Positions 2,917 to 24,337 of a DNA stretch of 64,000 bases are shown one piece after another. The position numbers and the translations under genes are program-made. Source of the stretch: Gammaproteobacteria bacterium (GTDB taxonomy: Bacteria > Pseudomonadota > Gammaproteobacteria > SZUA-229); contig JADGFA010000012.1 of NCBI GenBank assembly GCA_016744065.1, positions 1-64,000 on the forward strand, written 5' to 3'. Every line of letters starts with the position of its first letter. Position 1 is the first letter of the stretch. The notes beneath the pieces were generated by a model. It had not been told where the DNA came from and did no database searches. It saw only the letters and a program-made list of their open reading frames with translations.

Positions 2917-3106
2917 TTCTTTTTTTGGCAGCCAGCCATGTTTTTCATATAGTTTTCGTATAAGTTTAATAATCTCTTTTTCAATTGATAGATCGAATAA
3001 AACACTGGCAATAGAGAGGTGACGGCTTGAGCCGCCAGTACGGTATGGAGTATGAAATAATCAGCCTAAATCACCACTTTCATCCAGGCATATATAAATT
3101 TCAGAC

Positions 3107-3138
3107 AAAAAAAAGCACCTACATTTCTGTAGGTGCTT
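3107..3138 (-). terminator. Rho-independent terminator of the tRNA operon
   Basis: Read on the reverse strand, a ten-base perfect stem (AGCACCTACA paired with TGTAGGTGCT) with a four-base loop is followed by a run of eight T. It lies about ten bases past the 3' CCA of tRNA-His, at the end of the Pro-Arg-His tRNA transcript. Confidence 0.9.
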
Positions 3139-3146
3139 AATTAATA

Positions 3147-3223
3147 TGGGGTGAATGATGGGACTCGAACCCACGACATCCGGAATCACAATCCGGGGCT
3201 CTACCAACTGAGCTACACCCACC
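3147..3223 (-). tRNA. tRNA-His (GTG)
   Basis: Full cloverleaf with anticodon GTG in loop TTGTGAT, D-arm AGCTCAGTTGGTAGAGC and T-loop GGTTCGAGTC. The extra 5' G (position -1) opposite C73, specific to tRNA-His, is present, and CCA is encoded. The acceptor stem has two G-U type pairs. It is the last gene of the three-tRNA transcript, just before the terminator. Confidence 0.95.
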
Positions 3224-3229
3224 ATAAAA

Positions 3230-3306
3230 TGGTGCGCCTGACAGGACTCGAACCTGTTACCCTCGGCTTAGAAGGCCGATGCTCTATCCAGATGAGCTAC
3301 AGGCGC
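3230..3306 (-). tRNA. tRNA-Arg (TCT)
   Basis: Acceptor stem GCGCCTG pairs with CAGGCGC, anticodon TCT sits in loop CTTCTAA, the T-arm is ACAGG-TTCGAGT-CCTGT, and CCA is encoded. It reads AGA and AGG codons. It lies between tRNA-Pro and tRNA-His on the same strand; only six bases separate it from tRNA-His. Confidence 0.95.
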
Positions 3307-3408
3307 ATATACAGATCCGTCCGATTTTAGCAGGACTTTGGCCGAAGATTATATAAATCTAAACTCAACCATGCAGGGTATTTCGACAAAACCTCGCATT
3401 TTCTAATT

Positions 3409-3485
3409 TGGTCGGGGTAGAGAGATTCGAACTCCCGACATCCTGCTCCCAAAGCAGGCGCGCTACCAGACTGCGCTATACCCCG
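3409..3485 (-). tRNA. tRNA-Pro (TGG)
   Basis: Acceptor stem CGGGGTA pairs with TACCCCG, anticodon TGG is in loop TTTGGGA on a CCTGC/GCAGG stem, the T-loop is TTCGAAT, and CCA is encoded. It is the first intact gene of the tRNA transcript. Its 5' half (first 17 bases) is copied again and again directly upstream in the 3486-3840 repeat array. Confidence 0.95.
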
Positions 3486-3840
3486 ATATTTTTTAACTTT
3501 CCCTGTCAGGCGATATAAACTCGCAAACACCTGCACTTTATAAGTAGCAGGCTCCGCTTGACTGCGCTATACCCCGATATTTTTTAACTTTCCCTGTCAG
3601 GCGATATAAACTCGCAAACACCTGCACTTTATAAGTAGCAGGCTCCGCTTGACTGCGCTATACCCCGATATTTTTTAACTTTCCCTGTCAGGCGATATAA
3701 ACTCGCAAGCACCTGCACTTTATAAAGTAGCAGGCTCCGCTTGACTGCGCTATACCCCGATATTTTTTAACTTTCCCTGTCGGGCTATATAAACTCTCAA
3801 GCACCTGCACTTTGTCAGCAGCAGGCCACGATATACCCCA
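3486..3840 (-). repeat. tandem array of degenerate tRNA-Pro copies, about 91-bp period
   Basis: Four head-to-tail units upstream of tRNA-Pro in the direction of transcription: 3486-3576, 3577-3667 (91 bp each, almost identical), 3668-3759 (92 bp) and a diverged 3760-3840. The three proximal units begin with the exact 5' end of tRNA-Pro (CGGGGTATAGCGCAGTC); the distal one is diverged there. All carry an anticodon-arm-like hairpin with CCTGC/GCAGG stem but a 12-base loop in place of the TGG loop, then a T-arm-like GCGAGTTTATATCGC. The 3' acceptor strand is missing, so none can be a working tRNA. Each unit ends in GGGAAAGTTAAAAAATAT. Confidence 0.85.
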
Positions 3841-4075
3841 ATATGTTTTAACTTTCCCTACTTTAAACTCCATTTATCACTTTCGCGAGCCCCCTGTTAA
3901 TACTTTTAAGTAGTAACAAACGAGGAAGCGGATATTACGCATTTACTCGATACAGGTCAACTGCTTCATACTCCGATTCATTAAAATACTTATCTTTTTC
4001 CTGCCGAGCCGCTTGTAGCCAATGGCCAATGCATGAGAAAATCCGCGTCTTAATTTATCTGAGTACATAATAGGT

Positions 4076-4930
4076 ATGTCTGCACAAATCATAGATGGTA
4101 AACAGGTCGCCGCTGATCTACACACAACAATCAGGCAACGTGTTAATGAGCGCCTGAATGCGGGTAAAAAAGCACCTGGGCTTGCTGTTATTCTGATCGG
4201 TGAAGACCCCGCATCTCATGTGTATGTACGCAATAAACGCCTTGCCTGTGAAAAAGCCGGAATTATATCCCGTGCCTACGATTTACCCGCCAGTACATCA
4301 CAACAGGAGCTGGATGACCTTATTGACCAGCTCAATGTAGATAATGACATTCACGGCATACTGGTTCAGTTCCCATTACCTGAAGGGCTTAATGAAGCGG
4401 CTGTAATTGAACGTATTAATGTTAAGAAAGATGTAGATGGCTTCCACCCTTTTAATTTAGGACAACTGGCCCAGCGTGACCCTGGTTTACGCCCCTGCAC
4501 ACCTTATGGTGTAAAACTTTTACTGGATTCAGCCGGGGAAATTTATAAAGGCCGAAATGCCGTTATTGTAGGCGCCTCTAACCATGTTGGTCGCCCTGCT
4601 ATGTTAGAAATGCTGCTTGCCGGTGCTACGGTGACAATAACGCATCGCTTCACCGATGACCTGGAAGACCATGTACGCCGTGCAGATATTGTGATTGTTG
4701 CTGTTGGTAAACCGGGGCTGGTTAAGGGTGAATGGATTAAGGATGGTGCCACGGTAATCGATGTTGGTATTAACCGAAAAGCAGATGGCTCACTTTGTGG
4801 TGATGTTGATTTTAAAAGCGCTTCGGAGCATGCTGCGTGGATTACCCCTGTACCGGGTGGTGTTGGCCCAATGACCGTTGCTGTTCTACTACTAAACACG
4901 CTGGATGCTGCCGATAATTTAGATGCATAA
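4076..4930 (+). CDS. folD: bifunctional methylenetetrahydrofolate dehydrogenase / methenyl-THF cyclohydrolase
   Basis: FolD oxidises 5,10-methylene-THF to 5,10-methenyl-THF with NADP+ and hydrolyses that to 10-formyl-THF in the cytosol, supplying one-carbon units for purines and formyl-Met. At 284 aa it has the usual length. Visible are the catalytic YVRNK segment (Tyr and Lys, around residue 50), DVDGFHP (around 120), the dinucleotide-binding GASNHVGRP (about 163-171) and the C-terminal [12 protein letters not shown]. The ATG at 4076 matches the family N-terminus (MSAQIIDGK). It faces away from the tRNA cluster. Confidence 0.97.
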
Positions 4931-23511: not shown

Positions 23512-23558
23512 ACGATTGGGAATAGTTTAAATTCAGTATTTTTTTAATATTCACAACC

Positions 23559-24337
23559 CTGTCATTCTGAGCGTGAGTGATGAAACCTGAACTCAGCTTA
23601 TAGCTGTTGTTTTATAACACCAGATCCTTCACTCACGTTCAGGATGACAGGAAACTTTGAACACACTCAAACCTGTCATTCTGAGCATTGGCGAAGAATC
23701 CTGAACCCGACTTATACCTGTTATTTTATAACACCAGATCCTTCACTCGCGTTCAGGATGACAGGAGACTTTAAACACACCCAAACCTGTCATTCTGAGC
23801 ATTGACGAAGAATCGTGAACTCGGCTATACCTGTTATTTTATAACACCAGATCCTTCACTCGCATTCAGGATGACAGGGAACTTTGAACACACCCACACC
23901 TGCCGTTCTGAGCATTGACGAAGAATCGTGAACTCGGCTATACCTGTTATTTTATAACACCAGATCCTTCACTCACGTTCAGGATGACAGGAGACTTTAA
24001 ACACACCCAAACCTGTCATTCTGAGCATTGGCGAAGAATCCTGAACCCGACTTATACCTGTTATTTTATAACACCAGATCCTTCACTCACGTTCAGGATG
24101 ACAGGAGACTTTAAACACACCCAAACCTGTCATTCTGAGCGTTGACGAAGAATCGTGAACTCGCTTATACCTGTTATTTGATAACACCAGATCCTTCACT
24201 CACGTTCAGAATGACAGGAAACTTTAAACACACTCAAACCTGTCATTCTGAGCGTGAGCGAAGAATCCTGAACCCGGCTATACCTGTTATTTTATAACAC
24301 CAACTCCTTCATTGGCGTTCAGGATAACAAAGAGCTT
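23559..24337. repeat. array of seven 113-114-bp palindromic repeats
   Basis: Seven head-to-tail copies begin at 23559, 23673, 23787, 23900, 24013, 24127 and 24240. Each unit starts CTGTCATTCTGAGC and ends with its inverted counterpart GTTCAGGATGACAG, with a shared core (CCTGTTATTTTATAACACCAG) between the arms and a short linker (AACTTT.AACACAC.CAAACC) before the next copy. Single-base and spacer differences show recent tandem spread. A solitary perfect copy is at 1598-1665 and a diverged one at 57715-57809. It separates the Skp-like gene from the convergent vWA gene. Confidence 0.93.

Follow-up and report, generated by a model that had tools for sequence, protein, structure and literature searches.

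What are the repeated sequences in front of the tRNA-Pro(TGG) gene of this gammaproteobacterium, and why should they begin like the tRNA itself? The window, which is the whole stretch of DNA that was analyzed, comprises 64,000 nucleotides. A tandem repeat was identified ahead of tRNA-Pro(TGG) at positions 3486-3840 on the minus strand (TRF score 651, 3.9 copies, period 91, 96% matches). It consists of four units of 81-92 bp arranged head to tail. The features of the locus are as follows.

4076-4930, plus strand: folD, the divergent neighbour, conserved in the family and the basis of the species tree
3960-3932, minus strand: promoter of the tRNA operon, TTGACC-N17-TAATAT, kept in relatives
3841-3931, minus strand: first part of the leader, from the promoter to unit 4, read from the sequence with a putative start site
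3760-3840, minus strand: unit 4, 81 bp, diverged, with a decayed 5' head (TGGGGTATATCG); 59.7 bits with the Pro-unit model
3668-3759, minus strand: unit 3, 92 bp, with one base insertion and one substitution
3577-3667, minus strand: unit 2, 91 bp, without differences from unit 1
3486-3576, minus strand: unit 1, 91 bp, with the first 17 nt of tRNA-Pro, the hairpin CCTGC/GCAGG, ACAGGGA and an AT-rich leader; 96.9 bits with the Pro-unit model
3774-3780, 3682-3688 and 3591-3597, minus strand: ACAGGGA motifs of units 4, 3 and 2, found by sequence
3500-3506, minus strand: ACAGGGA motif of unit 1, found by sequence, resembling the core of a CsrA site
3409-3485, minus strand: tRNA-Pro(TGG), found by ARAGORN and the Rfam tRNA model (68.5 bits), the real gene and source of the repeated 17 nt
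3230-3306, minus strand: tRNA-Arg(TCT), a gene of the Pro-Arg-His operon
3147-3222, minus strand: tRNA-His(GTG), a gene of the same operon
3138-3113, minus strand: terminator-like hairpin with a T-run at the end of the tRNA operon

Composition of the repeat units

Units 1-3 start with CGGGGTATAGCGCAGTC, which matches the 5' end of tRNA-Pro(TGG) at 17 of 17 nucleotides, and CCTGC/GCAGG is present in all four units. A preliminary description of this DNA had reported three units of 91-92 bp opening with the exact 17-base 5' end of tRNA-Pro, a diverged fourth, distal unit and, in every unit, a hairpin CCTGC/GCAGG read as an anticodon stem; the units, their heads and the presence of CCTGC/GCAGG were confirmed. 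The exact number of units hinges on assembly through an identical 91-bp repeat, as the genome is a 94-contig assembly. When the genome itself was searched with the array, no second match was obtained; the Pro unit is confined to one place.

The likeness to a tRNA was found to be limited. A covariance-model search of the units had been suggested, and the Rfam tRNA model matched only the three real tRNAs at the locus and none of the units. After the 17-mer, local similarity to the tRNA gave P values of 0.04-0.99, and alignments anchored at the 17-mer gave 0.01-0.05 in four of six units. A reading of the units as tRNA genes or pseudogenes was rejected on these results, and tRNA ancestry beyond 17 nt is no more than marginally supported by the sequences. 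The earlier view of pseudo-tRNA units derived from tRNA-Pro thus holds for the 5' 17 nt and not for tRNA identity beyond them, and a T-arm-like stem proposed for the units was unsupported by the model search and by the weak similarity after the 17-mer.

Promoter and leader RNA

The units lie upstream of the Pro-Arg-His genes, in the same direction, between the promoter and tRNA-Pro. Among relatives whose loci extend far enough for a comparison (G003 was judged by eye), the promoter of tRNA-Pro is located at -63 to -68 in most of those free of inserts, one having it at -93. Where units are present, it is found at -143 to -475. The promoter is conserved upstream of every unit, and the four units are therefore very probably part of the transcribed leader RNA of the tRNA operon, in agreement with the preliminary description. 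The same description had considered repeated promoters within the units, but no promoter-like sites were found inside them.

Distribution and conservation of the Pro unit

In a tree of FolD sequences, all genomes with units were placed within one well-supported clade of ten, seven of which carry units, while two have short leaders and one has an interrupted tRNA copy instead. Two relatives within the clade have lost the Pro unit. The genome of the window (G000) has four units; G002, G004, G009 and G025 have one each, G007 has at least two plus a third interrupted by the contig end, and G003, also at a contig end, has at least one. The sole tRNA-Pro(TGG) gene of G029 at first appeared to be interrupted, a reading that was rejected since its sequence continues into a run of N.

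The Pro junction was found in two of 369 genomes of a class-wide sample, both from one genus. A junction scan of genome contigs gave 17 records, four of which were the relatives G003, G007, G009 and G002, these being MAGs labelled Gammaproteobacteria bacterium N3S-Bin_1, N2D-Bin_4, S140_maxbin2_scaf2bin.248 and SZUA-229. Six Pseudomonas and Serratia junction records did not match the Pro-unit model.

The bodies of the Pro units are 73-91% identical between genera and occupy the same position of the locus in seven species, whereas the spacer after tRNA-Pro was close to the shuffled background in most cross-genus pairs, with the exception of G007 against G009 (0.76). Judged from these sequences, the Pro unit is old. 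Units 1 and 2 are identical and the number of units differs among species, which indicates that the copies were multiplied by slippage or recombination; the copy number grew through tandem duplication. The preliminary description had asked whether the units were mere slippage products and whether their number varied in related genomes. The number does vary, from one to four among species, and slippage explains it, but leaves unexplained why the unit body is conserved between genera. The copy number behaves like slippage, whereas the unit body looks constrained.

Elsewhere in the window, at 23554-24329, another tandem array was observed, consisting of about seven 113-bp units (CAAACCTGTCATTCTGAGC...) with 89% matches.

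Sister elements before other tRNA genes

A scan of the tRNA loci of the same genome for repeated tRNA ends identified tRNA-Lys(TTT), which has two leader units, the nearer with an exact tRNA-Lys head. The sister elements of this genome are listed here.

G000:C16:6864-7203 (L100): two sister elements before tRNA-Lys(TTT)
G000:C71:33238-33332 (L085): sister element before tRNA-Leu(GAG), 25 nt before the tRNA, with a decayed head

Related elements were present in relatives ahead of Lys, Leu(GAG) and Thr(CGT) genes. In this layout the 5' end of the tRNA itself is copied as far as the D-loop, and stem-loops and then the real tRNA follow. A covariance model (R1), built from 12 sister sequences with the tRNA head left out, matched 41 times, in 21 of 106 genomes; 18 of these genomes belong to the same family, and the three from other families scored lower. 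Thirty R1 loci were read; 23 had a tRNA no more than 400 nt downstream, mostly at 18-28 nt, and in six of the remaining seven the contig ends within 150 nt. The sequence ahead of the sister element matched the head of its own tRNA at a mean of 14.0 of 16 positions, compared to 9.8 of 16 for the heads of other tRNAs, and the match was complete (16/16) in 12 of 23 elements. Decayed heads occur in some, e.g. before Leu(GAG) in G001, G003 and the genome of the window. About nine isoacceptors carry the elements: Lys(TTT), Lys(CTT), Leu(GAG), Thr(CGT), Thr(TGT), Phe, Val(GAC), Arg(CCG) and His. None of the Rfam families matched them.

The sister elements appear to be structured RNAs. In 37 aligned matches, 94.0% of the cells pair, compared to 76.5% after shuffling, the covariation score is 0.413 (0.134 shuffled, at most 0.055 when slid) and changes on both sides are seen at 14 of 18 pairs, although the alignment was fitted to the model, which favours these statistics, and its rows are related to one another, which overstates their significance. 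A GGA is present in the P3 loop of all 36 sequences having that loop (ACAGGA, CAGGGA, CATGGA and similar), in the P2 region of 25 of 37 and in the P4 region of 23 of 36. Hairpin loops are expected to hold 1.89 GGA per molecule, against 0.31 in shuffled sequences. We call these elements 5' tRNA-linked repeats, the mirror image of the TLR/RtT repeats of E. coli.

The Pro units have in common with the sister elements the position, the tRNA head with its breakpoint in the D-loop and the first hairpin. The motif ACARGGA is kept in the Pro units of six of seven species, with AAAAGGA in G002, and occurs eight times in nine Pro units compared to 0.03 in shuffles. GGA in a loop was predicted at 0.44, against 0.13 shuffled, and a hairpin presenting GGA, tested unit by unit, gave P values of 0.06-0.75. 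The hairpin conserved among the Pro units showed no compensatory changes. The sister covariance models R1 and R2 gave no score on the Pro units and local similarity was marginal (P 0.02-0.87), so homology of the two was not demonstrable. The Pro units are accordingly filed as sharing the architecture of the sister elements, and not as proven homologues. With regard to class, the Pro array probably belongs with the 5' tRNA-linked repeats as a leader element.

Possible function of the leader

A GGA in a hairpin loop is a known binding site for CsrA/RsmA, and the sister elements, from their sequence, look like decoys for CsrA. A csrA gene was found in seven of nine genomes tested, including that of the window (G000:C7:14641-14796, E 1.7e-26); none was found in G016, which is 94% complete and carries sister elements. 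CsrA titration is the leading mechanism, unproven.

The best explanation overall, put forward tentatively and at somewhat less than an even chance, is that a conserved element of the leader RNA was amplified fourfold in tandem, with a mechanism in four steps. Transcription would start from the promoter at 3960-3932, as its conservation suggests, and run via the four units into tRNA-Pro. RNase P would then cleave at the 5' end of the real tRNA and release a leader of about 440 nt. Cleavage by RNase P at the 5' end of tRNAs is an established pathway of tRNA maturation. The freed leader, with one ARGGA per unit, may in a third step act as a by-product small RNA titrating CsrA/RsmA, and the dose of the sponge would track tRNA output. 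Finally, slippage or recombination between the direct repeats raises the copy number, as is shown by the identical units and the differing number among species. For the Pro units the third step is rather doubtful; the support for it is far stronger in the sister elements ahead of Lys, Thr, Phe, Val and His.

Alternative explanations

The ALTERNATIVES tested were acceptor-strand competition, a closing helix between the head and the unit end and tRNA ancestry beyond 17 nt, with passive slippage as the main rival. According to the latter, a truncated copy arose by duplication of tRNA-Pro and was multiplied by slippage, and the leader is cut off and degraded without any function. The identity of units 1 and 2, a number of one to four among species, the different broken copies of tRNA-Pro that other family members carry in this leader and the two clade members without a unit all fit such a passive repeat, and it is a serious possibility, if not a likely one. 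However, it does not account for a unit body conserved across genera beyond the adjoining spacer, for the retention of ACARGGA or for the recurrence of the layout, together with a covarying structure, ahead of many other tRNAs.

A mobile or self-copying element targeting tRNA genes is improbable. Such an element would insert at the D-loop and duplicate leader plus head, the TLR-like ones inserting at the T-loop and duplicating tail plus spacer, and its RNA structure would serve its spread. The same element does occur at many tRNAs, each time with that tRNA's own end copied, the breakpoints are at the D-loop or T-loop, and leader plus head are duplicated in G002 and tail plus spacer in G004; but no recombinase was tied to the element, mobility alone leaves the near-invariant GGA loops unexplained, and the Pro unit is at a single place in the genome.

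The weakest alternative, a very improbable cis-acting decoy in which the repeated 5' strands compete for the 3' acceptor strand of the tRNA or attract RNase P and thereby set the rate of tRNA-Pro maturation, agrees with the capture of the acceptor strand predicted by equilibrium folding in G002 (0.66) and G007 (0.74 plus 0.21), but not with its absence from the folds of the window genome, G004, G009 and G025 (acceptor pairing 0.95-0.98), with co-transcriptional folding, which would favour the nearer strand, or with the need of RNase P for the 3' acceptor strand, which the units lack. Capture being predicted in two species only, the acceptor-strand decoy was rejected as a conserved mechanism.

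Folds of five species showed a basal helix in which the head pairs with the 3' strand of the same unit. It was rejected as a feature of the units, as it ranked 56-188 of 500 against shuffles, and the own head of the sister elements paired no better than the heads of others.

Comparison with known tRNA-linked repeats and sponges

Knowledge of tRNA-linked repeats goes back to 1978; for the ones in tRNA operons, no function is established to our knowledge. The TLRs of E. coli, including RtT RNA (Rfam RF00391), resemble the Pro array in that they are found in tRNA operons, copy one end of the adjacent tRNA, are often in tandem and are co-transcribed. In these TLRs the last 18-19 bp are copied and the repeat is downstream of the tRNA, whereas the Pro units copy the first 17 nt and are upstream of it. 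TLR/RtT repeats are located inside the transcript of a tRNA or rRNA operon, as are the Pro units, between the conserved promoter and tRNA-Pro. RF00391 gave no match in positions 3000-4200 of the window at E values up to 1. The GGA-in-loop score is 0 for the E. coli tyr TLRs and 1.89 for the sister elements. The E. coli TLRs are characterized by a copy of the 3' end of the tRNA that lies downstream of it, and three TLRs from rRNA operons were shown to bind CsrA in vitro (PMC8144298). These three, RrA, RrB and RrF, resemble the elements described here as by-products of stable RNA with GGA hairpin loops, but unlike the Pro units they are found after 5S rRNA and copy its 3' end (PMC8144298).

The sponges CsrB, CsrC, RsmY and RsmZ also have repeated ARGGA in hairpin loops, a likeness that is clear in the sister elements and weak in the Pro units; they are free-standing genes with their own promoters, whereas here the motifs are in tRNA leaders. 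The 3'ETS-leuZ sponge of E. coli is likewise a discarded spacer of a tRNA precursor, but is a 3' spacer, titrates small RNAs rather than a protein and is not a repeat. No description of 5' tRNA-linked repeats was found in Rfam or in the literature covered, most subscription papers being outside that coverage.

TLR/RtT-like elements were found in relatives downstream of tRNA-Pro and other tRNAs, with a best score against RF00391 of 40.6 bits (cut-off 45). For those near tRNA-Pro, the expected number of GGA in loops is 2.29, against 0.23 shuffled. They were observed near tRNA-Pro at L003-L007, L009, L012, L017, L019, L020, L022 and L024, and near other tRNAs at L056, L060, L062 and L067. They are about 71-90 nt long, are often doubled and carry GGA in their hairpin loops. 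After them, the 3' end of the tRNA is copied from position 59 on. A single genome gave as many as 19 matches, and other gammaproteobacterial families were among those matched. In the genome of the window, a remnant of a TLR-like 3' element is located downstream of tRNA-Gln(TTG) at G000:C45:7375-7402 (L081), with a copy of the tRNA-Gln 3' end 190 nt downstream.

Interrupted tRNA copies were also observed. Upstream copies of tRNA-Pro in the leaders of L012 and L024 have an enlarged D-loop that forms an extra hairpin, the copy of L024 being otherwise full length. A TLR/RtT-like element is located within the T-loop of a tRNA-like copy, after position 59, in the tRNA-Pro leader of L007, L011, L013 and L015 and at L063 (Val) and L077 (Arg). 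Over their first 59 nt, leader copies of tRNA-Pro with a T-loop element share 98-100% identity with the real tRNA, and do so in distant genera.

Significance

It is possible, though on balance not probable, that these gammaproteobacteria possess an undescribed family of structured RNAs in the leaders of many tRNA genes, each tagged with the 5' end of its own tRNA, removed in maturation and acting as CsrA sponges that couple the Csr network to tRNA output; the Pro array would be an amplified version, diverged in sequence. With a mirror-image class at the 5' side, its structure covarying and its GGA loops nearly invariant, tRNA-linked repeats would gain a testable role, that of small RNAs produced in step with tRNA synthesis and tuning CsrA. 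If this is true, discarded tRNA leaders can harbour conserved, amplifiable RNA.
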